Positions 1 through 14,586 of a stretch of 39,341 nucleotides of DNA are shown here, piece by piece; the first letter of the stretch is position 1, and every line of letters starts with the position of its first letter. The position numbers and the translations under genes are program-made. The notes under the pieces are model-generated. The model ran no database searches. It was not told the origin of the DNA and worked only from the letters and a program-made list of their open reading frames with translations. Source of the stretch: Clostridia bacterium (lineage in GTDB: Bacteria; Bacillota; Clostridia; UMGS1883); assembly GCA_017505525.1 (NCBI GenBank), contig JAFVPB010000012.1, positions 1 to 39,341 on the forward strand, in the 5' to 3' direction.

Positions 1-3000
1 CCGCCGTTTGCGTTGAAGATTACCGTATATTCGGGGTTTTTAAGGCTGACGGTTGTATCTTTCGTGTTAGACTTTTTATAGATGTCGGTCTGTTTCTGAT
101 ATACAAATACCCAAAGGTTATTGCTTCCTGCATAGACGTCGGGTACGGTGATGGTTGCTCTGCCGTTTGTATCGGGAGTAAATTCGATTTTATATTTATC
201 ACTGAACTCGCAAACAAAATCTGTTTTGCTCCTATCAGCTTCATCAAGGGTGATTACAAAGCTGTTCACCGTTACATCGCTAATGGTAAATTGGTTTATA
301 CTAGCACGGCCAAGCCTTTCAATCGTGTAATTTGTATAAGCTGTTACGCCGCCCACTGTGATTTGCGCTTTGTATGTACCGCCTACATTCTCAAAAGGTG
401 TGGTTGTAGCAGAGCTTTCGTCAATATTGGGATATTGTGAATATTTATAATAAACAATATCGGGAAGCTCTGTTATTCCGCCGATTGATGTTGCAGAAAG
501 AGTTGCTGCCGCATTTTTGCCGTCATTCACTTCGATGTGAAGCGGCTTAATAATAGCTAATTCCTTATTTGCTGTCGAGGTACATTCTCCCTCGCCGTTA
601 CAAGTTGCAACAATAATATCGGTTTGGTCTGCCTTAATCGAATAGCTCCACTGGCAAACGTGAGCAGGCTTTTCCACCAACTGCAGCTCGCCGTCAGTTT
701 CGCGGATGTCATACTTCGCCGAATCGTCAGGAGTGAAATATTTGTAAATATTCTCCCCTTCCCCATCCATGTATGTGTTCCAGCCGGAGGTAAATGTCGT
801 TTCGGTGTAATAATTTACGCCGATCTGTGCGTCCGCGGTCAGCGCGCCGATGATAGTGATGTCATTAGCGCAGTAAATATTGTTTTCAGCCGTGCCAACC
901 GTATTATCCGTGACAACAGGGCTGCCGGACACATTGAATTTGCCGGCCTGGTTATACACACCGCCGCTATAATAATTGGCGCTGTTGCCGGTGATCTCGC
1001 CGCCGGTCATGGTGAAGGTGCCGGAATACACATACACACCGCCGCCATAGGTGGATGCGGTATTGCCGGAAATGGTGCCGCCGGACATATTGAAGGTGCC
1101 GGAATACACATACACACCGCCGCCATCGGAGGATACATGGTCGGAAATTGTACCGCCGTACATATTAAAGGTGCCGGAGGACACATACACACCGCCGCCT
1201 TTGCGATCGCTGCCAGATGTAAAGGTGTTGTTGGTGATGCTTCCGCCGTACATGTTAAAGGTGCCGGAGGACACATACACACCGGCTCCTTGTTGATAAA
1301 CGGTGTTGCCGGTGATGCTGCCGCCGTAGAGGTTCACAGTGCCGTCATCAATATACACGCCGCCGTTTTTTCCTCCGGTGATCTTGCCGGTGGAAGGCTC
1401 GCTGCAGTCGCAGATGTTCAAAACCGCATTGGTGCCATTCGCTCTAAACACCGGGGCGCTTCCGGAGCCGGTAATTGTATTGCCATTCAGGCAAACGTTG
1501 TATGTTCCGCTGGCATTCACATAAATGAATGTGCAGTCATTGGCAACATACGAGAGGGTAATATCCTCACCCAGATAGTAGCTGCCGGGAGTGAGTATAT
1601 ATGAGGAGCCGGACTTTGTCACATAACTACTGATATTTTCCTTCGTCAGCTTGACCCACTCGCTTACTTCGCTGTGGTTATGGGTAGTGTTGGTGCAGTT
1701 CGCCACACCGCAGATGGGATGTTCGTGTGCTGCCAGCACCGTCACGATACATGTGTCAGTCTTGCCGCCATCAGCAGTGGTGACGGTTATGGTAGCCGTA
1801 CCTTCGCCTATAGCACTGACAACACCGTCAGCAACCGTTGCCACAGATTCATTATTGGAACTCCAAGTCACAGCCTTGTTGGTGGCGTTATTGGGGCTGA
1901 CGGTAGCGGTCAGGGTTTCGGTGCTGCCAACACCAAGGGTAAGGCTGCTCTCGCTCAGCTCCACGCCGGTGACGGGGATGCTGGGAGCTTCATACTCTAC
2001 CGGACCGGAATAGAGTACGGTACCGTCTTTATATGTGATCTTACAGGCATACCAGCCATCCTCATCTGCTTCAAAGGTCTTGCTCGTTGCACCGTCAGCG
2101 GGAGTGCTGCCGATGTGGAACACCTGCGCTTTCACAGTTGGTTGTGTGCCACCACCATATGTAACATCTGAAACATGGAGATCATAGTTTCCGTCTGCCG
2201 GAGCTGTTACCAAAAAGTGGTCATCCGGCGTTGTCCAGTCCCAATCCTGCTTCTCATAAGCCGCCCAGATGCCAAGCTGTCCTTCACTGATGGTAGCGGA
2301 GGTTTGGGCAAGGATCGAATCACCTGCGTTCAACGCAATGTTGAAATAGCCGGGGGTGCTATACCCCCCTGCTTCATGGCAAGTCCACCAGCCATCGGAA
2401 TAGGAAGAGGTCAATGTATCCTCCGTGTAGGCAGACACGCCATCAGCCGTATCGGTCACTTCCGACATAGTGCCTTTATACCACTGATAGGAAGCAATAT
2501 CGCCATCAGCGTTCGTGCCCACCGCAGGTGTGCTTTCAGTTGGCTGAGTCGTGATCTCATATTCTTCCCACTGAGCATAGAGCGTGGTGTTGGAGTTGAT
2601 GTTAAAGGTGTCACCCGGAGCATAATCTGTTCCATAGCCGCTGGACCATGTATTCCACCCGACAAATGCATAGCCGGTCTTTGCCAGATTGCCGGTATTG
2701 CCCAGAACGGTGACGGTGCTGCCGGAAATATATGGAGAATTGCTGTCCGCAGGCACATCACCGGAGGTCGCGCCGTTGCCGTTGTAGGTCACGGTATAGG
2801 AGGTGGGAGGCTCTGCCAACTCCAACTCGTTATTGCCGTCAGGCTGAACGATGTAACCGTCGTTTGCGGAGGTGAAATATCTGTCGTAATTCGCTGCGTT
2901 TTCGCCCATCTTGGTTGTCCAACCGCTGGTGAAGGTGCCGGGGGTATTCATCCTCACGCTGATGGCCTTGTCCGATGTGTAGGTCAGACCGCCCTCGCCG

Positions 3001-3878
3001 ATGGTGATGAGCTTGTCGGAATTAAGATAGATGTCTGCCCAAGTACCTGTGATGGTGGGGGCACCGCTGAGGTTAAGGGTGCCGTTGTTGCTGATGCCAT
3101 AGTTGCCGTCGAGATTTCCGACACTGCCGCCGCTGAGGTTAAGGATGCCGTTGTTGGTGATGCCGTTGGTGGCACCGATGACGGTGCCGCCGTAGACGTT
3201 GACGATGCCAGAGGTGAAATATTTTTTGTTTAGGATGCCTTCGCTGCTGCCGCTGCTCACGGTGCCGTCGTAGATGTTGGCGGTACCTTTGGCCTCGTTG
3301 TAGATGCCGTGACCCTGGCCATGGGGGGCTTTAACGGTGCCGCCGTAGACATTGACGGTACCGTAGTTGTCGATGCCGCTGCCTTTGACGGTGTTTCCAC
3401 TTCCGCTGCCTTGGACGGTGCCGCCGTAGACGTTGACGGTGCCGTTGTTGGTGATGTTGCCATCGCTGTTGACGATGGCTTTAACGGTGCCGCCGGAGCC
3501 GCAGGCACAAATGTTCAGGGTTGCACCGCTACTGACGGTGATGTTTTTCCTGTTTGTAATGGTCTTTCCGTTCAAGCAGAGGTTGACCGTGCCGGATGAA
3601 ATGGTAAGGGTTTCGGTAAGGTTGACATTATCGGTCAGATACCAACTGCCCGCTGTGAGCTGGATGCCATCGGTTTCGCCGTCTTTATCCGTGCCGTCCC
3701 ATGCCGTCCAAGTAATATCCTCACAACTTCCCGTGTGGTCTCCGATGTCAGTATGCGCTGCACCGCAGATTGCGTGAGCGTGTGTCGCCGGTATTGCAAA
3801 TGCGGTTGCCGGCATAAGGCTCATCAACATACAAAATGTGAGCAGACATGCCATTAGTTTTGATAACTTTCTTCTCAT
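1..3878 (-). CDS. Large secreted repeat protein (beta-helix-like repeats, InlB B-repeat, BIG2), 3' end outside window
   Basis: Reading back from ATG at 3878, the frame stays open to the window edge (about 1,292 codons), so the C-terminus is missing. A strong GGAGG lies 7 bases before the ATG. Residues 1-29 form a signal peptide (MRRK, then a hydrophobic stretch ending ATAFA). Residues about 110-285 carry repeats of the type GTVNVYGGTV and LNLSGG, as in right-handed beta-helix surface proteins. About 355-436 is an InlB B-repeat (Listeria-Bacteroides type: YTVTYNGNGA, then GYAFVGW, ending TLYAQW). About 630-710 is a BIG2 Ig-like domain (VTGVELSESSLTLGVG, then VTWSSNNESVATV). About 835-975 is a second repeat block with GGGVYVSSGTFNMYGG. 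A further B-repeat begins at the edge (YTVIFNANGG). Surface adhesion is inferred from these domains; no catalytic domain or anchor is visible. Base composition is distinctly richer in G+C than the genes to the right, which suggests separate ancestry. Confidence 0.9.
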   Translation of the reverse strand, partial: MRRKLSKLMACLLTFCMLMSLMPATAFAIPATHAHAICGAAHTDIGDHTGSCEDITWTAWDGTDKDGETDGIQLTAGSWYLTDNVNLTETLTISSGTVNLCLNGKTITNRKNITVSSGATLNICACGSGGTVKAIVNSDGNITNNGTVNVYGGTVQGSGSGNTVKGSGIDNYGTVNVYGGTVKAPHGQGHGIYNEAKGTANIYDGTVSSGSSEGILNKKYFTSGIVNVYGGTVIGATNGITNNGILNLSGGSVGNLDGNYGISNNGTLNLSGAPTITGTWADIYLNSDKLITIGEGGLTYTSDKAISVRMNTPGTFTSGWTTKMGENAANYDRYFTSANDGYIVQPDGNNELELAEPPTSYTVTYNGNGATSGDVPADSNSPYISGSTVTVLGNTGNLAKTGYAFVGWNTWSSGYGTDYAPGDTFNINSNTTLYAQWEEYEITTQPTESTPAVGTNADGDIASYQWYKGTMSEVTDTADGVSAYTEDTLTSSYSDGWWTCHEAGGYSTPGYFNIALNAGDSILAQTSATISEGQLGIWAAYEKQDWDWTTPDDHFLVTAPADGNYDLHVSDVTYGGGTQPTVKAQVFHIGSTPADGATSKTFEADEDGWYACKITYKDGTVLYSGPVEYEAPSIPVTGVELSESSLTLGVGSTETLTATVSPNNATNKAVTWSSNNESVATVADGVVSAIGEGTATITVTTADGGKTDTCIVTVLAAHEHPICGVANCTNTTHNHSEVSEWVKLTKENISSYVTKSGSSYILTPGSYYLGEDITLSYVANDCTFIYVNASGTYNVCLNGNTITGSGSAPVFRANGTNAVLNICDCSEPSTGKITGGKNGGVYIDDGTVNLYGGSITGNTVYQQGAGVYVSSGTFNMYGGSITNNTFTSGSDRKGGGVYVSSGTFNMYGGTISDHVSSDGGGVYVYSGTFNMSGGTISGNTASTYGGGVYVYSGTFTMTGGEITGNSANYYSGGVYNQAGKFNVSGSPVVTDNTVGTAENNIYCANDITIIGALTADAQIGVNYYTETTFTSGWNTYMDGEGENIYKYFTPDDSAKYDIRETDGELQLVEKPAHVCQWSYSIKADQTDIIVATCNGEGECTSTANKELAIIKPLHIEVNDGKNAAATLSATSIGGITELPDIVYYKYSQYPNIDESSATTTPFENVGGTYKAQITVGGVTAYTNYTIERLGRASINQFTISDVTVNSFVITLDEADRSKTDFVCEFSDKYKIEFTPDTNGRATITVPDVYAGSNNLWVFVYQKQTDIYKKSNTKDTTVSLKNPEYTVIFNANG

Positions 3879-3989
3879 AATGTTTCCTCCAAACATCTTT
3901 TAGTTTCTTTTTAATAATTCTTTATTTCGGGATAACAGCAGATGCCAACCTCTAAAGCCACAGGCTCGGTCAGGTGGAAGTCTGCAAAT

Positions 3990-4241
3990 TTACAATAATA
4001 GCACTCTGGCAATGCGTGAAATTTTGTCTGCCAAATCAATACCGTTTAACACGTCCATATAAATATCCAAAAAGATAACATCATACATTGCAGAATTATC
4101 AAGTGCGGAAATAATATCGTCTGCGGAAGAAAAGCCTGAAACGGAAATCTGCATCTGATTTTCATTTGCATATCGGTTTATATGTACTTTTAATTTTTTG
4201 ATTTCTTCGGGAATATCATCACATATTGCAACCTGTATCAT
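3990..4241 (-). pseudogene. Truncated LytTR/AgrA-type response regulator (receiver domain only)
   Basis: Eighty-three codons begin at an ATG preceded by AAAGGAGG with 7-base spacing. The product starts MIQVAICDD, with the acidic pair of a receiver domain, and has FLDIYMDVLNGIDLA with the phospho-acceptor Asp near residue 56. This is the pattern of LytTR-family regulators (AgrA, VirR). It then ends abruptly at RIARVLLL. The second half of the receiver and the whole LytTR DNA-binding domain are missing, and I see no continuation in the 110 bases before the next gene. Such a protein could be phosphorylated but could not bind DNA. I read it as a remnant cut by the recombination that placed the G+C-richer surface-protein gene beside it. 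A short stand-alone receiver decoy is possible but less likely. Confidence 0.75.
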
Positions 4242-6093: not shown

Positions 6094-6837
6094 TTAAATT
6101 AACAGATACTCGTTTATTATTTTTTTGAAGAATTCAACTACAATTACCCTTTGAGTCTGCTCATCGTATTTTGAATAAATTTCCGGTTTTCTTTCCTTAT
6201 ACATTATTACCTCGTAAATGTATTCTTTGAAGAGTTCCCTTGTCGCTTTCTTTGATGAACGAACAGTAGGAATATATCTCTCCATCTCCTGCTGAATATA
6301 TTCCGGCGAAAGTTTTGTCTTAAGTACACCATAAAGCATTGCACCGAGGTCTTCTGCTATGTACTTCTTTATATCTGTATTAATATCGATTCTCGGAAGG
6401 ATTAAATTGATTGCATTTTCTTTAAACCGCAAAGCAAATTCACGGTATCGGTTGTAATATTCCGTTTCAACGGTCTTAAGAGTATGTTCCTTTTCTATAC
6501 AGCTCTTCAGGCAGCATTTTTCCTCACATTCTTCCAAAACCGCCTCAAATTCTGCCTTTGTTACTTGCTGAGTCATTTCCTTATCTGCTTCTGCAAATCC
6601 TTTACAGTTTCCAACAAACTCATAAAGTGCCTGAATAACTTCATCGCCGTCTTCGCACACCATCAAATATGATGATAAAAGCATAATATACTCGTTATCG
6701 GCATTATTCTCAGCACATTCTTTGAGCTTCATACATTCAGTATCATCTTCTCGCAGATATGATTCCCGACAGAAATCTTCAAGTGCATTTAACAATTCGA
6801 GCAAATCGGTTAATTGCATAATTCTTTCAATTGTCAT
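6094..6837 (-). CDS. Helical protein of unknown function, last gene of the recombinase operon
   Basis: 247 residues from ATG at 6837, chosen for its AAGGAAGG ribosome binding site; an upstream in-frame start has none. The sequence is almost entirely charged and amphipathic, so probably all-helical, with no signal peptide or membrane segment. Residues about 20-115 contain an unusual number of cysteines, including a CEEKCCLKSC cluster that could bind metal. The C-terminal 100 residues are Lys/Glu-rich (FKEYIYEVIMYKERKPEIYSKYDE). I recognise no family. It lies 63 bases after the dead-resolvase gene, with a small terminator-like hairpin between, so its expression may be lower than that of the upstream genes. 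Its place next to recombinase genes suggests an accessory or partner protein, but that is context only. Confidence 0.65.
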   Translation of the reverse strand: MTIERIMQLTDLLELLNALEDFCRESYLREDDTECMKLKECAENNADNEYIMLLSSYLMVCEDGDEVIQALYEFVGNCKGFAEADKEMTQQVTKAEFEAVLEECEEKCCLKSCIEKEHTLKTVETEYYNRYREFALRFKENAINLILPRIDINTDIKKYIAEDLGAMLYGVLKTKLSPEYIQQEMERYIPTVRSSKKATRELFKEYIYEVIMYKERKPEIYSKYDEQTQRVIVVEFFKKIINEYLLI

Positions 6838-6864
6838 TATAATCCTTCCTTTCAAAATTTCCAA

Positions 6865-6900: not shown

Positions 6901-7704
6901 TTAAAGTGTCATTATGTAGTTGTCTGTACGCACATCGTAATCCATTTCAAGGTCTGTTTCGATGAATTTTATTCCTATGCCCTTTTCCTCGAACATCTTG
7001 CAACAGGATATGAAATCCTTAGTCTTCGGGGCAAGGGTTTCTATGCTATAAGTGTATATCTCATCTATATCTTTTTTATTACATATTTGCATTAGCTCTT
7101 TAAAACCTATTCTTTCAGTAATAGGTTTATTTCCGCCGCCTATATCTATAACACAGTCTACAAGATTTACATTTTTATTTTCAACCAACTTGCTTTTGCA
7201 GATTTCGATACTTTCTCTATGTTTCTGCTCTTTTTCAGGTTTACAGAATGGGTATGCATAGTACATAACAACATTCTTCTTTTTTTCTTTAATTATTGGC
7301 TCTGTGCCGGTAACTATTCCGCAAACTCTTTTTAAATTGCTCATCATCTGAGGAGATGCTGTATTAATGCATTCAGCATAAAATTTTAACCCTACCCGTT
7401 GTTTATCGAATGCTTGTACAATATTCATCATTGCATCCATATTTCTTCCTATGTGTTTTAATGATGGTATTGCTATTTCATTAAGATTATCATCCTTTGA
7501 CAGTTCCAATAGTTTAAGCAAGACCGGTCTTTTTTCTAGCGGAGTATTTCGTGGACATATATCCACGAATTCCCCTATAAGTTCTGCACAAGGGTTCTTC
7601 TCTATATCCTTTTTAATATCTGCAATATGTTTCTTATATATTTCTTCTTGCTCTTTAGGCATTGTAAGATAACAACTGTATATAGCAACTTTTGATTTAT
7701 TCAT
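6901..7704 (-). CDS. Tandem-duplicated, catalytically dead serine-resolvase-domain protein
   Basis: 267 residues; GAGGAG precedes ATG 7704, and the gene starts 25 bases after the third recombinase. I see two copies of the resolvase N-terminal fold. Copy 1 (about 5-120) has VAIYSCYLT where the neighbouring recombinase has VAAYCRVST, and IAIPSLKHIGRN at 77-88 against ILTKSISRFARN, followed by GLKFYAECINT against VSVYFEKENIDT. Copy 2 (about 144-260) has VVMYYAYPF, then IYTYSIETLAPKT, then GIKFIETDLEM. The nucleophilic Ser is Leu13 in copy 1 and Pro152 in copy 2. The Arg of YxRVS is Cys11 and Ala150. Of the two Arg in SRFARN only the second survives, in copy 1 (Arg87). There is no recombinase DNA-binding domain or zinc ribbon. 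Strand transfer should be impossible. A role as dimer partner, inhibitor or directionality factor of the adjacent recombinases is inference. Confidence 0.8.
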   Translation of the reverse strand: MNKSKVAIYSCYLTMPKEQEEIYKKHIADIKKDIEKNPCAELIGEFVDICPRNTPLEKRPVLLKLLELSKDDNLNEIAIPSLKHIGRNMDAMMNIVQAFDKQRVGLKFYAECINTASPQMMSNLKRVCGIVTGTEPIIKEKKKNVVMYYAYPFCKPEKEQKHRESIEICKSKLVENKNVNLVDCVIDIGGGNKPITERIGFKELMQICNKKDIDEIYTYSIETLAPKTKDFISCCKMFEEKGIGIKFIETDLEMDYDVRTDNYIMTL

Positions 7705-7729
7705 ATAAGTGTTTTTCTCCTCTCTTTGT

Positions 7730-9373
7730 TTATAAATTTACTACAAGCTTGACTGTGTTAAACAATGTGATTTCCGCCTTTTCATCAGACAGTATCTTTA
7801 CCTTATTTACCATCTGTCTTGCTATTTCATCGTTATATTCTGTAAATTTTCCGGGGATTTGGCTTATGGTATCGTAGATTTCTCTGAGATGACCTGTTTG
7901 GGAGTTTTCCATCTGTTGTCTTGCAGTGGCAGAATTCAACATCTCCTGCAACTTGCTGACCTCATCATGTTTAACCTTGCATTTTTCTGATATTGTTGCT
8001 CTGTCATCTCTGTTTTCAACCCCCACCTTTATGATTTCTACTATTTCATTGTTTTTTTGTCTTATGCTTTCTGTAAGGTCTATTATTTGCCTGTCCGAAT
8101 CGGGAGCTTGCAGGATTTCGGCTATACTTCCTTTTATCAGACTTTTTATTTTGTCTGTATTATCAAGCATAGTATTCATTGCTGATACTACTGCATTATG
8201 TATTTTCTCTTCCTCTATTGTCGGAGATTTTGTACAGTATTTTGTTCCATAGTCGAGTCTGCTGATACATCTCCATACTACCCTTTTATTTCCGTTTCTT
8301 GACCATGTTGTTCTTCTGTACTTACCACCGCAATCTCCGCATACTACTATTCCTGTCAAGGCATATTTACTGCTGAACTTTGATTTATGAGATATGCTCT
8401 TGTCTGATGTTGCTTGGAGGCTGTTTCTTCTTGCAATCTCAACCTGAACCATATCGAATACTGCAGGTTCTATGATTGGTATGTGATGATTCTTTATATA
8501 GTACATAGGAAGTTCTCCTGTGTTTCTTGCTGACTTTTTCGTAAAGAGGTCTACCACATATGTTTTCTGTACTAAGACATCACCCTTATATTTTTCATTC
8601 GTCAATATATTATTGATTACAGATGGTGACCAATCATCCTTACCCTTTTTAGTTTTTATACCTTGCTCTTTCAGATATTTCGCGATTCCGCTATAGCTAT
8701 ATCCATCAAGGAATTTTTTGAATATAAGCTTTATGATTTCAGCTTCTTCCGGTACTATCTCAGGCTGACTGTCAATTCCTTTTCTGTATCCCAAGAGATT
8801 GTTATACATCATAGGAACTCTTCCGAGCTTATATCCGAACCTCTTACCAAGCTTGACATTATTACTATGAGATTCACTTTCCGCCTGTGCAAATACACTG
8901 TAAAGTGCAATCATCATTTCACTTGTCATCTGCCCTGTATCAATGTTTTCTTTTTCGAAGTACACAGACACACCAAGGCTTTTAAGTTCTCTTATGTATT
9001 TAATACTGTCCACAAGGTTTCGGGCGAATCGTGAGATTGATTTTGTCAGAATTCTGTCTATTTTACCTTCACGGCACATTTCAATCATCCTGTTGAATTC
9101 ATCTCGCTTTTTCGTCATTACACCGGATGTTCCCTCATCGGCAAAGACCTCGACAAGCTGCCATTCAGGATTGCCTTGAATTTTGTCGGTATAATAACCT
9201 ATCTGCGCTTCATAACTTGTAAGCTGTTCCTCATCATCCGTACTAACACGGCAGTATGCTGCTACTCGCAGTCTTCCCTTTTGTGCTTTCTTTTTTACAA
9301 GGTCTTTATTAGCCGGGAGGACTATAACCTCCATTGGCGGTAAGGTTGTGGCTTGAGCATATCCTACATTCAT
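7730..9373 (-). CDS. Large serine recombinase, full length (third of triplet)
   Basis: 547 residues; GAGGTGA precedes ATG 9373. Residues about 36-180 are the resolvase catalytic domain: VAAYCRVST with nucleophile Ser44, EGTSG, and ILTKSISRFARN with both active-site Arg. About 195-315 is the 'recombinase' DNA-binding domain (YSGIAKYLKEQGIKTKKGK, then NILTNEKYKGD). About 345-395 is a recombinase zinc ribbon (CGDCGGKYRR, then WRC and YCTKSP). The rest is a coiled coil with a final beta segment, as in TnpX/Ccr-type enzymes (usually 450-700 residues). It should cut and rejoin att sites of the element by a Ser-linked, double-strand mechanism. All key residues are present. It follows the catalytic-domain-less gene by 20 bases, so the triplet is one operon. 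Confidence 0.93.
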   Translation of the reverse strand: MNVGYAQATTLPPMEVIVLPANKDLVKKKAQKGRLRVAAYCRVSTDDEEQLTSYEAQIGYYTDKIQGNPEWQLVEVFADEGTSGVMTKKRDEFNRMIEMCREGKIDRILTKSISRFARNLVDSIKYIRELKSLGVSVYFEKENIDTGQMTSEMMIALYSVFAQAESESHSNNVKLGKRFGYKLGRVPMMYNNLLGYRKGIDSQPEIVPEEAEIIKLIFKKFLDGYSYSGIAKYLKEQGIKTKKGKDDWSPSVINNILTNEKYKGDVLVQKTYVVDLFTKKSARNTGELPMYYIKNHHIPIIEPAVFDMVQVEIARRNSLQATSDKSISHKSKFSSKYALTGIVVCGDCGGKYRRTTWSRNGNKRVVWRCISRLDYGTKYCTKSPTIEEEKIHNAVVSAMNTMLDNTDKIKSLIKGSIAEILQAPDSDRQIIDLTESIRQKNNEIVEIIKVGVENRDDRATISEKCKVKHDEVSKLQEMLNSATARQQMENSQTGHLREIYDTISQIPGKFTEYNDEIARQMVNKVKILSDEKAEITLFNTVKLVVNL

Positions 9374-9393: not shown

Positions 9394-10275
9394 CTAACCT
9401 ATTTCTCTTTCTCTTCTTTCAAATTCTTTTCCATTAATAAGTTCAATACATATTTCCTTGTTAGGGAGTATCTTTATTTTGCGTACAATCTTTTCAATTG
9501 TCTTTCCATCTGCCATTACCTTTTTGGGGTATATTGCAAGAGATTCTTTTATTTTCTGTGTTATGGCAGTATTATCTCCTGCTTTACATTGTTCAAATTT
9601 TACCGAAGCAAGATTCATTATTTTTTCTATTACATTTTCGATTTCACAGCAGGGATTTTCTATTGACAAAGCAATCTCATTGTTTGCCCTTACTACATCC
9701 GCACTTTTTTCATAATCTTTTTCGGTTTTTATATCGATTACATCAAGGTCATCTGCTAATTCATTCATAAAGTCTGCCAACAGAACATTGAGTGTTTTTT
9801 CACTGAAATTCATTCTATTGCTCTTGCATTCTTTATTTGAACATTTCCAATACATTCTTCTGTTTTTACCTGAGTTTGCATGCATTCTCAGCATTTTACC
9901 ACCGCAGATACCGCACTTTATTTTTGTTCTGTATGCATCAAGTCTGCTTTTATCATCTTCATCCAACTGCACCTGCTTCTTTTCCTTGCATTCACGGGCA
10001 AGCTTTGCATTCTCTTCAGATATAATCGGCGGATATCCTTTATCGCCTGTGTACTTCGGATTCTCAAGTATTCTCTTTACGATATTCTTGTTCCACGGTC
10101 TGCCATCATCTGAATATGCTATTGGAAGTAAGTTCAGTCTGTCTGATATATTCTGTAGCGATAATCCTTGTATATACAGGAGATAAATATTTCTTACTAC
10201 CTCTGCTTCTTTTTCAACTATGCACACCGCACCGTCAATTATTTCATATCCGAATGCCATATATCTGTTTGCCAC
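9394..10275 (-). CDS. Serine recombinase lacking the catalytic domain (middle of triplet)
   Basis: 293 residues. The start is GTG 10275, one base after the upstream stop, with AGGAGG 9 bases before it inside the preceding gene; this implies translational coupling. The product begins MANRYMAFGYEI, which corresponds to the point where the DNA-binding domain starts in full-length relatives (compare QGCAPYGFKI upstream). Residues 1-110 are the recombinase domain (LSLQNISDRLN, then RILENPKYTGDKGY). About 118-165 is a zinc ribbon (CGICGGKMLR, then WKC and ECKSN), followed by a coiled coil. There is no YxRVS or SRFARN segment anywhere. The tight gene junctions and good start argue that this is a designed form and not a decay product. 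It should bind DNA or partner recombinases but cannot cut. Confidence 0.88.
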   Translation of the reverse strand: MANRYMAFGYEIIDGAVCIVEKEAEVVRNIYLLYIQGLSLQNISDRLNLLPIAYSDDGRPWNKNIVKRILENPKYTGDKGYPPIISEENAKLARECKEKKQVQLDEDDKSRLDAYRTKIKCGICGGKMLRMHANSGKNRRMYWKCSNKECKSNRMNFSEKTLNVLLADFMNELADDLDVIDIKTEKDYEKSADVVRANNEIALSIENPCCEIENVIEKIMNLASVKFEQCKAGDNTAITQKIKESLAIYPKKVMADGKTIEKIVRKIKILPNKEICIELINGKEFERREREIG

Positions 10276-10276
10276 T

Positions 10277-11833
10277 TCATCTCACCTCCTGATAACTCAC
10301 TGTCAGTTTTAATCCGTTTATTAGTTCGTAGATAAGGTTTTTACCTGAATCTACCCAAATTTTATTCAATACTTTACTAAGTAAGGTTTTTTCAACCTCA
10401 CCGATAGGACCTGTGATTTTGATTATGTTAATTATTGATTCTGTTTTTTTAATAAGCTTTTCGCACTCATCATTTCCCATCAGTATTTTCTTTTCTTTTT
10501 GAAGCATACTGATTCTAGTCTTAGCTTCTTGACTTTTTTCTAAGAACAAAGCAGATTCCATGTATCCTTGTAGTTTCATTTCCTGATACATTAGAATCTG
10601 CTCTGATATTTCTGCTATTTCTTTATTTATATTTTCAATCACACCTGTGCTTCTCAATCTTTGAGTTCTGAGTTCAGAGAGTTGAGTCACTATAGGTGTA
10701 AGTATTGTTTCCACATTATTTACGAGTCTGTTATACATATTGATAAAGCCATCACATACTACTTTTTCTGATATTTGTGTTGATGAGCATTCGCTTCCAT
10801 ATTGGTCTTTTTTCCTGCATACCCAATACACATTTATGTCATTGGATTTCCTGCGGTACATTGTTCCGCATTCTTTGCAGTATATCATTTTTGAAAGCAT
10901 GTGGTTTCTCGGTGTTATACTTGTTCTGTATCTTTTTGATTGTTCATCGAGAAGCGCATTTGCCTTATCAAATGTTTCTTCATCAACTATAGCAGGATTT
11001 GCATTCTTAATATAATACATATCCTTTTCGCCACGATTGATTTTTGTTTTAAAGGGGAATTCCTCTGTATAGGTCTTTTGCAGGAGTGCATCTCCTTTGT
11101 ATCTTACATTGCGGATAATGTATGCAATGTGTTTTTCATTCCATACACAAGAGCCATCGTTTTTTGGAACTCTTGCCAGAGTTAATTGATCGGCAATTTT
11201 CTTAAGGCTGACACCGTTGATATATGATTTAAATATCAATCTTACAACCCTTGCCTGTTCTTCAACTATTTGCCAAATATTATCTACTATCTTAAATCCG
11301 TATGGTGCACATCCTTGCTTGAATGTTCCATTCTTCATTCGGTATTGAACCCCCATACGGACATTTTCTGATATTGACATTGATTCTTCCTGTGCAATAG
11401 AGCCTAACGCTGCAAGTTCTACCTCACTGGACATAATCATCGTGTTTATATTTTCTTTTTCAAAGTAAATTCCTACACCGAAATATTTAAGTTTTCTTGC
11501 ATATTCAACGCAGTCAAGTGTATTTCTCGCAAACCTTGATATTGATTTTGTAAGTATCAAATCAATTTTGCACTCTTTACAATCTTCATACATTCTGTTG
11601 AAGTCGTCTCTTTTATCTATTGCTGTTCCTGTTATACCTTCATCGGCATATACATCTACAAGAACCCAATTGGGATTTGAGTTTATGAGGTTGATATAAT
11701 AGTCATACTGCACTATGTACGAATTTTCCTGATCATCTGAATCACTGCTTACTCTGATATACGGAGCTACTCTGATTTTACCTGATGTTGTTCCTATGTT
11801 TTTCGTTGGATTTATAACTATTATTTCAGCCAT
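10277..11833 (-). CDS. Large serine recombinase, full length (first of triplet)
   Basis: 518 residues; AAAGGGGGAT precedes ATG 11833. Residues about 20-165 form the catalytic domain: VAPYIRVSS with nucleophile Ser29, DEGITGTAIDKRDDF, and ILTKSISRFARN. About 170-300 is the recombinase domain (CAPYGFKIVD, VSLKKIADQL, YIIRNVRYKGDALLQKTY). About 318-360 is a zinc ribbon (YCKECGTMYRR, then WVC and GSECSS), followed by a long coiled coil. The catalytic domain is close to that of the third recombinase but the C-terminal parts differ, so the two active enzymes probably read different half-sites or act in different steps. Triplets of large serine recombinases are known from some Firmicutes integrative elements. 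Confidence 0.93.
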   Translation of the reverse strand: MAEIIVINPTKNIGTTSGKIRVAPYIRVSSDSDDQENSYIVQYDYYINLINSNPNWVLVDVYADEGITGTAIDKRDDFNRMYEDCKECKIDLILTKSISRFARNTLDCVEYARKLKYFGVGIYFEKENINTMIMSSEVELAALGSIAQEESMSISENVRMGVQYRMKNGTFKQGCAPYGFKIVDNIWQIVEEQARVVRLIFKSYINGVSLKKIADQLTLARVPKNDGSCVWNEKHIAYIIRNVRYKGDALLQKTYTEEFPFKTKINRGEKDMYYIKNANPAIVDEETFDKANALLDEQSKRYRTSITPRNHMLSKMIYCKECGTMYRRKSNDINVYWVCRKKDQYGSECSSTQISEKVVCDGFINMYNRLVNNVETILTPIVTQLSELRTQRLRSTGVIENINKEIAEISEQILMYQEMKLQGYMESALFLEKSQEAKTRISMLQKEKKILMGNDECEKLIKKTESIINIIKITGPIGEVEKTLLSKVLNKIWVDSGKNLIYELINGLKLTVSYQEVR

Positions 11834-12396: not shown

Positions 12397-12576
12397 TTAC
12401 ACGCTCGTACCCTGTTTGGCGATTCTTTTGATGAAGGCTTGTCCTTCACGGGCAGTCTTCGCGCATTCTAAGAAAGCTCCGGCAATTGTGAAAGTGTTCG
12501 CAGATGGGTATTCACTTTTCAAAGTGCAACAAGAGGAAATTATTCCCCTTTCACCTAATTGGAATGGAATCGTCAT
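12397..12576 (-). CDS. 59-residue small protein overlapping the regulator gene
   Basis: ATG 12576 lies inside the 3' end of the sigma-like gene, in another frame, and the frame runs 59 codons to TAA (MTIPFQLGERGIISSCC, then NTFTIAGAFLECAKTAREG, ending AKQGTSV). The overlap of 26 bases suggests translational coupling, since no separate ribosome binding site is clear. It has a Cys-Cys pair and a further Cys. No family is recognised. A long antisense frame covers the same bases, so coding status is uncertain. Confidence 0.4.
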   Translation of the reverse strand: MTIPFQLGERGIISSCCTLKSEYPSANTFTIAGAFLECAKTAREGQAFIKRIAKQGTSV

Positions 12577-13081
12577 TTTGTAAACCCATTTCAGGAAAAA
12601 AAGTTGAAAAAATTTTTCTTACCTGATGTATGCTCTTTTTTATTGCATTCTTACTGCAACCTTCTTTTACCGCAATTTTGTCCATTGATAAGCCCATAGA
12701 ATACAGCATTGCCCTCCTTTTTTGCGTAGGGGTAAGCTTTGCCATTACTTGTTCAAAACGAGTATCCTCAGCTTTTTCTTTTTCGTCTTCGTCCTCTATG
12801 TATTCATCCTCCGGAGACTTTGCCTCTGTAATATCATCTAAAATTTCATCGTTAAACTGAGCAACAGAGTATTTTGATGCCTTATCATCATTCTTGCAAA
12901 TTTCGTGAAACAACTCATCAGATAACTTTTTAAGCTTTTTAAACTCTTCTCTCGTTATCGTAGGATCAGATTCTGAAATCTTTTCAAATGTCAAAATTTC
13001 TGTGCAACCATTATGGGTGTACACGATAGCTGCTGTGTTCATTTTGTTTTTTGCAAAATCACTTTCATTAAAATTTTTCAT
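12551..13081 (-). CDS. Sigma-70 region-4-like regulator
   Basis: 176 residues from ATG 13081, chosen because GGAGG lies 8 bases upstream. Residues about 1-60 are a mixed N-terminal domain (AAIVYTHNGCTEILTF). About 70-105 is a very acidic linker (PEDEYIEDEDEKEKAED). About 112-165 reads as a sigma-70 region 4 / helix-turn-helix: LTPTQKRRAMLYSMGLSMDK, then IAVKEGCSKNAIKKSIHQVR. Integrative elements of Firmicutes often carry such small sigma-like regulators, for example Tn916 ORF7. There is no region 2, so it is probably an activator or a sigma-like accessory and not a full sigma factor. It should control the small genes and recombinases downstream. Its ribosome binding site is buried in a hairpin (13091-13128). 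Confidence 0.75.
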   Translation of the reverse strand: MKNFNESDFAKNKMNTAAIVYTHNGCTEILTFEKISESDPTITREEFKKLKKLSDELFHEICKNDDKASKYSVAQFNDEILDDITEAKSPEDEYIEDEDEKEKAEDTRFEQVMAKLTPTQKRRAMLYSMGLSMDKIAVKEGCSKNAIKKSIHQVRKIFSTFFPEMGLQNDDSIPIR

Positions 13082-13090
13082 TAAGAAATC

Positions 13091-13128
13091 CTCCAATTCA
13101 AAATAATTTAGGTTAGATTGAATTGGAG
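13091..13128 (-). promoter_or_regulatory. Hairpin that hides the ribosome binding site of the regulator
   Basis: On the minus strand CTCCAATTCAA (13128-13118) pairs perfectly with TTGAATTGGAG (13101-13091), an 11-bp stem with a 16-base loop. The 3' arm contains the GGAG of the regulator's ribosome binding site. The 59-codon frame upstream stops at 13132, four bases before the 5' arm, so a ribosome finishing that frame would cover the arm and free the site. Confidence 0.65.
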
Positions 13129-13953: not shown

Positions 13954-14586
13954 TCAAAGTATTTCTCTCCCCCCATCACCTATACTAGTAACATAGAACG
14001 ATGCTTTGTGACCAAATTTTTCTTCAAATAGCTCACCTATTCTTTTAGTGTATCTATCGACTGCATTATTTTTTATAATTGCAACTGTGCAACCTCCAAA
14101 ACCTGCACCAGTCATTCGTATTCCAAGTACGCCATCAATTTTTCTTCCCGTACTCACAATAAAGTCAAGTTCGGGACAGGTTACTTCATAATCATACTGC
14201 AGTGAATCATGAGATGCATTCATATACTGACCGAAGAGTGCTATATCGTTATTCTTCATAGCTTCTGCACTCTTGCAAACTCTGTCACATTCGTAAACTA
14301 CATGCTTAATTCTTTTCCTTGTAGTTTCGTTCTTAATTACATCTTTATATTGTTCAAACTTCTCTGTTGTTACATCAGCAAGTTCCTTTATGTCGTGAAG
14401 AACCATTTTAAGAGCGTTAATCCCCTCTTCACATTCTGCTCTTCTTTCGTTGTACTTTGAGCTTCCGAGAGAATGCTTAACATTTGTATTTGTAAGGACA
14501 ATACTGCTGTCACTTAATTTAAGCGGAATATGTTCATATTCAAGAGTTGCGCAGTTAAGATATACTGCGTGGTCTGCTTTTCCCAT
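13954..14586 (-). pseudogene. galK: Galactokinase, C-terminal half only
   Basis: The 210 codons begin MGKADHAVYLNCATLEYEHIPL, which matches galactokinase from about residue 180 of some 390, just after the usual MDQF segment, and run to the normal end. The GHMP motif 3 is intact (GIRMTGAGFGGCTVAII). The substrate-binding N-terminus (GRVNLIGEHTDY) and the ATP-binding motif (GLSSSA) are absent, so the product cannot phosphorylate galactose. There is no ribosome binding site. The beta-lactamase-like gene stops three bases upstream, in the same frame. The 5' half was probably replaced in one recombination event. A conventional galT does not follow. Confidence 0.85.

Follow-up and report, generated by a model that had tools for sequence, protein, structure and literature searches.

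The gene at 6901-7704 on the minus strand of the window, a 39,341-nucleotide stretch of DNA from a Clostridia bacterium, encodes a protein (DD) that consists of two catalytically dead serine-recombinase domains and is located in an operon with three recombinase genes. We tentatively propose, giving it somewhat less than an even chance, that DD, conserved and non-catalytic, belongs to a serine-recombinase mobile element and acts in trans as a partner of the active recombinases R1 and R3, limiting or steering their synapsis. The parts of the gene and its ribosome binding signal are as follows.

6901-7704, minus strand: DD, a 267-aa protein with two catalytically dead serine-recombinase (resolvase) domains (ORF, Pfam, HMM, AlphaFold, fold comparison)
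7333-7704, minus strand: DD domain 1, aa 1-124 (residue alignment and fold match)
6958-7284, minus strand: DD domain 2, aa 141-249 (residue alignment and fold match)
6904-6957, minus strand: DD C-terminal tail, aa 250-267, with the motif ..TD..M.M/L (alignments)
7717-7724, minus strand: Shine-Dalgarno-like GAGAGGAG, 12 nt before the DD ATG (from sequence)

The reading frame is intact and runs from an ATG at 7704 down to 6901, with a gap of 25 bases (7705-7729) between the stop codon of R3 (7730-9373) and the start codon of DD. The intact frame, the ribosome binding site and the spacing behind R3 had been noticed in an earlier sequence-only reading, to which the strand is added here. The tail motif is common to one- and two-domain members of the family and is predicted with a pLDDT under 50.

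The proposal that both halves are dead resolvase domains was borne out by profile searches and structure prediction. PF00239 matches DD twice (E 2e-17, 64.1 bits, against a gathering cut-off of 23.3 bits), and an HMM built only from the catalytic domains of seven or eight neighbouring recombinases aligned with residues 5-122 and 157-253 at a full-sequence E of 3.5e-25. Judged from sequence, this similarity is far past chance level. An AlphaFold run with eight aligned sequences as input gave two consecutive resolvase folds with a mean pLDDT of 78.5; at a pTM of 0.47 the model does not fix how the two domains sit relative to each other. In VIA-align the best match of residues 4-134 was the catalytic domain of TP901-1 integrase (3bvp_A, Z 15.5), and residues 143-249 matched the catalytic domain of an IS607-like transposase (6dgc_B, Z 15.1, rmsd 1.7 over 100 residues). 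Other Rossmann-like folds, such as sugar-binding proteins and ferrochelatases, ranked further down the fold lists, on long and poor alignments, and database searches with DD returned no family besides recombinases. By sequence and predicted fold each half of DD belongs to the resolvase-domain family. Placement in another Rossmann-like family and homologues located mostly away from recombinases had both been named as findings that would speak against this assignment; neither was found, and DD is conserved in other genomes.

Catalytic residues were numbered by alignment to gamma-delta resolvase, the sequence of which served as a ruler. In domain 1, R8 is replaced by Cys11, S10 by Leu13, and both Q19 and R68 by His; Tyr6, D36, R45 and R71 are kept. 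In domain 2, R8 is replaced by Ala150, S10 by Pro152, Q19 by Ser, R68 by Thr and R71 by Pro, with Tyr6, D36 and R45 kept. The alignment agrees with the positions at which the loss of the nucleophile and the first arginine had been read by eye. The claim that hardly any of the other catalytic residues is left was too strong: Q19 and R68 are indeed lost, but Tyr6, D36 and R45 remain in both halves and R71 in the first. Of the recombinase domains returned by these searches, about 50 in number, nearly all read Y-R-S-Q-D-R-R-R, the exceptions being gaps or truncations. The relatives of DD described below are likewise dead, with other letters (C/I, G/E, C/V); catalytic residues are gone in every DD-family domain and present in all readable recombinases compared. 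Since the relatives are dead with different letters, the loss is old and tolerated, and Asp36, Arg45 and the fold have been retained.

No DNA-binding domain is present, as had been supposed: Pfam detects neither PF07508 nor a zinc ribbon or HTH along the 267 residues, and in the AlphaFold model both folded parts are resolvase domains. With the nucleophile, arginines (R8, R68) and a DNA-binding domain gone, DD is not a recombinase. In active serine recombinases, which work as tetramers, the subunits are held together by the catalytic domain and by alphaE, the helix that makes the dimer and tetramer contacts. In the DD model this helix is reduced to residues 120-131 (12 residues) in domain 1, and no helix follows strand 244-247 in domain 2. 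Because alphaE is shortened or missing, the canonical tetramer interface is doubtful for DD, a point that was missed when DD was proposed as a possible stoichiometric partner of the recombinases.

The genes around DD, all on the same strand, support its assignment to a recombinase-triplet operon, with R1, R2 and R3 directly upstream.

12551-13096, minus strand: sigma-70 region-4-like gene, upstream of the triplet
10277-11833, minus strand: R1, large serine recombinase, 518 aa, full set of catalytic residues (Pfam, alignment)
9394-10275, minus strand: R2, recombinase without catalytic domain, 293 aa, PF07508 and zinc ribbon only (Pfam)
7730-9373, minus strand: R3, large serine recombinase, 547 aa, full set of catalytic residues (Pfam, alignment)
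6094-6864, minus strand: ORF256, conserved partner gene beside DD and its relatives, with its ATG at 6834

Transcription proceeds from the sigma-like gene through R1, R2, R3 and DD to ORF256, the three recombinase genes being adjacent and in the same direction (11833-7730). The lack of a catalytic domain in R2 is not peculiar to the window; it was found in all nine R1-R2-R3 triplets that were readable enough (window, L034, L064, L113-L117, L120/L121), with R2 counterparts at 7591-8454 of L034, 3611-4498 of L064 and 3534-4409 of L113. The IMG/VR contig L064 has the same layout minus DD (sigma-like gene, R1, R2, R3, ORF256), and L034, elsewhere in the genome of the window, has it minus both DD and ORF256. 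No dead protein was seen at the triplets of C61 (same genome) and L064, so a dead protein is not obligatory. Further members of ORF256 are located at 6358-7119 of L064, 5153-5896 of L059 and 8777-10373 of L060. Its product, predicted to be mostly helical (pLDDT 90.7), has no family match in Pfam, NCBIfam or PHROG and no PDB match under E 1, the best Z of 6.7 lying below the noise level of the tool. ORF256 is a new conserved family and a constant neighbour of DD, often also of the triplet.

DD-type proteins are present in four of the 391 genomes of the class that were searched: that of the window and three other ruminant-gut Clostridia. These bacterial relatives are an addition to the sequence-only reading, which had none. 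Frames are intact in all four species. A full two-domain relative (L057/L055) shares 37% identity with DD (E 4e-48), and L061 and L062 encode single-domain relatives (E about 1e-15); the PF00239 scores of the relatives are 88.5, 44.0 and 43.2 bits. In L057 an additional, more eroded dead domain of 133 aa lies just before DD, with a Pfam score of 22.1 bits that is slightly below the cut-off. ORF256 genes are present at all four DD-type loci, in varying gene order. Whether homologues always follow recombinase triplets, as had been asked, is answered in part: R3 lies upstream of the dead gene at two of the four loci (the window and L062, where its 3' end is seen), and the contigs of L061 and L057 end before that point. 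Single-sequence scans with DD over genome contigs, viral contigs and plasmids gave no homologue, and a scan of a phage collection gave just a weak match to an invertase; the neighbouring ORF256 was the bait that succeeded. A dead-domain-1 profile run against 398 genomes of the phylum yielded active recombinases for the most part and added no DD-like protein. Short matches of about 290 aa in the same family, considered as DD relatives, turned out to be ordinary recombinases, their residues intact.

In a tree of 53 domains, in which long branches may attract each other according to a warning of the tool, domain 1 of both DDs groups with the single-domain proteins (99/89), the two domain-2 rows form their own clade (99/94), and a weak branch (75/75) leaves all dead rows together on the same side. 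The separate domain-1 and domain-2 clades indicate that the two-domain form is older than the split between the window and L057. The dead rows are strongly diverged, with end branches of 1.3-2.2 compared to a median of 0.19. Selection on DD is weakly measured, the single-domain pair giving an omega of 0.40 on 6 synonymous changes and the two-domain pair being saturated.

In other Bacillota, the dead-domain-1 profile led to 235-aa proteins that have Asp for Ser10 and are encoded right before R1. A search of 398 genomes with one of them gave seven close and two distant members of a second dead family (YCRID), of which two examples are listed here.

L098, 1486-1884: YCRID family member
L120, 2539-3246: YCRID family member

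Ser10 is replaced in all nine proteins, by Asp in six, Asn in one and Ala in two. It is the only uniformly lost residue; Arg8, Gln19, Arg68 and Arg71 are kept. The proteins are single-domain, some with an extra N-terminal part of about 115 aa, and stop near the last strand, without alphaE and without a DNA-binding domain. Their genes adjoin a recombinase cluster at each of the nine Bacillota loci, upstream of R1 in seven cases and directly behind the last recombinase in two. The omega is 0.14 for the 235-aa pair (0.11 in the resolvase half), 0.28 and 0.27 in better-measured comparisons, and 0.56 for L103/L105, the S10A pair, in which changes are few. By these values the YCRID family is under purifying selection. 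With all nine dead genes located beside recombinase clusters, dead catalytic-domain-only proteins are recurrent companions of these operons; they are a recurrent kind and no decaying oddity.

Three observations were made at the loci found in these searches. Sequence similar to the N-terminal 115 aa or so of the 235-aa dead proteins stands alone elsewhere, unfused (L096 1501-1830, L104 1453-1815 and L112). At L103 (1953) and L105 (1947) the frame that follows the dead-domain gene starts at LTQADE(A/C)H, in a different helicase-like gene at each locus, and the element may insert into a DEAD/DEAH-box motif. Single ORFs of about 1200 aa, at 4009-7686 of L095 and also in genomes G628 and G455, contain two complete, catalytically intact recombinase domains and are apparent fusions of two large serine recombinases.

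The DD halves share fold and family signature with TP901-1 integrase, the recombinase of a C. difficile conjugative transposon (3g13) and CcrA/B/C. Compared to large serine recombinases, DD lacks the nucleophile, R8, Q19, R68 and the DNA-binding domain, has a short or absent alphaE, and carries two copies of the domain per chain. YCRID proteins resemble DD in consisting of the catalytic-domain body alone, with the nucleophile replaced, and in adjoining a recombinase cluster; they differ in having a single domain, in keeping R8, R68 and R71, and in being encoded usually upstream of R1. In streptococcal ICEs three serine recombinase genes are likewise adjacent near one element end, but all 42 of 42 integrases of these triplets carry a PF00239 domain with the serine (Ambroset et al. 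2016, PMC4701971), whereas at the DD locus R2 lacks this domain and dead-domain genes are added. The only inactive serine recombinase found in the open-licence literature is poxvirus F16 (OPG061), whose catalytic inactivity was predicted by Senkevich, Koonin and Moss (2011; cited in PMC4304020). Like DD, F16 has a serine-recombinase fold without catalytic residues, but it is viral, has no neighbouring recombinases, is targeted to nucleoli and is not known to be linked to transposition. Fold matches between DD and OPG061 are weak (E 0.01-0.05) and common to all serine-recombinase folds. None of the open-licence papers found presents dead recombinase domains that accompany recombinase triplets. 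The statement that no protein of this design has been described thus stands, for this literature, as far as the tandem form is concerned, but it overlooked the F16 precedent and the YCRID family.

In view of the above, several roles can be considered for DD. Operon position and recurrence make a partner that limits or steers synapsis the most likely of these. DD would act in trans on R1 and R3, the recombinases of its own element. A DD body has no nucleophile, no DNA-binding domain and little or no alphaE, and would therefore be unable to recombine or to bind att sites alone; the surface left on it would be the face against which recombinase subunits pack. The DD bodies could pack on an active subunit, for example where the alphaE of its partner docks. 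Minus the nucleophile, DD would not take part in strand exchange but would restrain or redirect synapsis, and the element would stay quiet until excision is needed. That DD touches R1/R3, and in which direction it would act on them, is inferred. The dead proteins beside recombinase clusters suggest an overlooked class of recombination regulators. It is conceivable, though we hold it with reserve, that dead alphaE-less recombinase-domain proteins are general, repeatedly evolved built-in regulators of multi-recombinase elements, with DD as the covalently linked two-body version. DD would then be a direct handle on how multi-recombinase elements check their recombinases and on the three-gene design with one catalytic-domain-less member; if it inhibits or steers recombinases, it could serve as a natural off-switch for large serine integrases in genome engineering.

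It is rather unlikely that DD is a recombination directionality factor that binds R1/R3 and switches the reaction from integration to excision. Serine integrases need a separate factor of this type and the known ones are mutually unrelated, which would allow DD to be one, as would its place in the recombinase operon. The gin element, which is not a prophage and carries three serine recombinases, relies on a small separate factor, GirX (GirX/GirC; PMC5595907), which that paper does not describe as recombinase-like. However, a protein co-transcribed with the recombinases would always be present, an unusual trait in a directionality factor, several triplets have no dead protein, and ORF256 is a more constant neighbour than DD and just as good a candidate.

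We consider it unlikely that the DD domains have been co-opted outside recombination, for example for regulation or protection of the element, as apparently happened with F16. The strong divergence (end branches of 1.3-2.2 against the median of 0.19) and the F16 precedent would fit such a role, but two dead families both stay beside recombinases. There is a small chance that DD supplies the missing catalytic-domain part of R2, the two together forming inert subunits at att sites. The dead proteins lack exactly the parts that R2 has, and R2 is devoid of a catalytic domain in nine of nine triplets; yet the connecting alphaE is absent from DD domain 2 and R2 begins right at its recombinase domain, L118, L119 and L122 have a dead protein and full-length recombinases with no catalytic-domain-less R2 seen, and R2 triplets without a dead protein exist (L034, L064). 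A decaying, functionless recombinase duplicate, suggested by the lost catalytic residues and the few genomes (4 of 391 in the class sample), is very improbable in view of the intact frames in four species, the conserved two-domain layout and C-terminal motif, the retention of D36/R45 and the purifying selection in the related YCRID family.

A comparison of L061 and L062 bears on the extent of the element. Their single-domain dead genes are near-identical (dS 0.076), whereas saturation is reached in the neighbouring ORF256 genes (dS 2.7). High identity begins where ORF256 ends, covers the dead gene and stops at a sharp end some 70 bp beyond it, which indicates that the dead gene can be the last gene of an element and be swapped as a cassette. 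The sharp end coincides with the motif GGTTCGRATATCTYTATKGTTCGGCTTTCSCA, which recurs in L064 and abuts an intrinsic-terminator-like hairpin; elements ending in this way may integrate at intrinsic terminators. The motif was sought in the window and not found. The probable element ends, each with motif and hairpin, are:

L061, 1799-1836: GGTTCGRATATCTYTATKGTTCGGCTTTCSCA and hairpin
L062, 2431-2468: GGTTCGRATATCTYTATKGTTCGGCTTTCSCA and hairpin
L064, 7262-7295: GGTTCGRATATCTYTATKGTTCGGCTTTCSCA and hairpin
L057, about 3410: GGTTCGRATATCTYTATKGTTCGGCTTTCSCA and hairpin

At 371-1217 of L061, ORF256 is highly diverged from that of L062, with flanking DNA about 90-96% identical on both sides, which may reflect exchange or rapid diversification of the gene.

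Elsewhere in the window, a 210-aa galactokinase-like frame on the minus strand (13954-14586), identified by eye and apparently the C-terminal half only, is flanked by the sigma-like gene and a beta-lactamase-like gene. Positions 1-4000 have a G+C content of about 0.5, compared to 0.34 in the remainder, and contain long repetitive ORFs on both strands.
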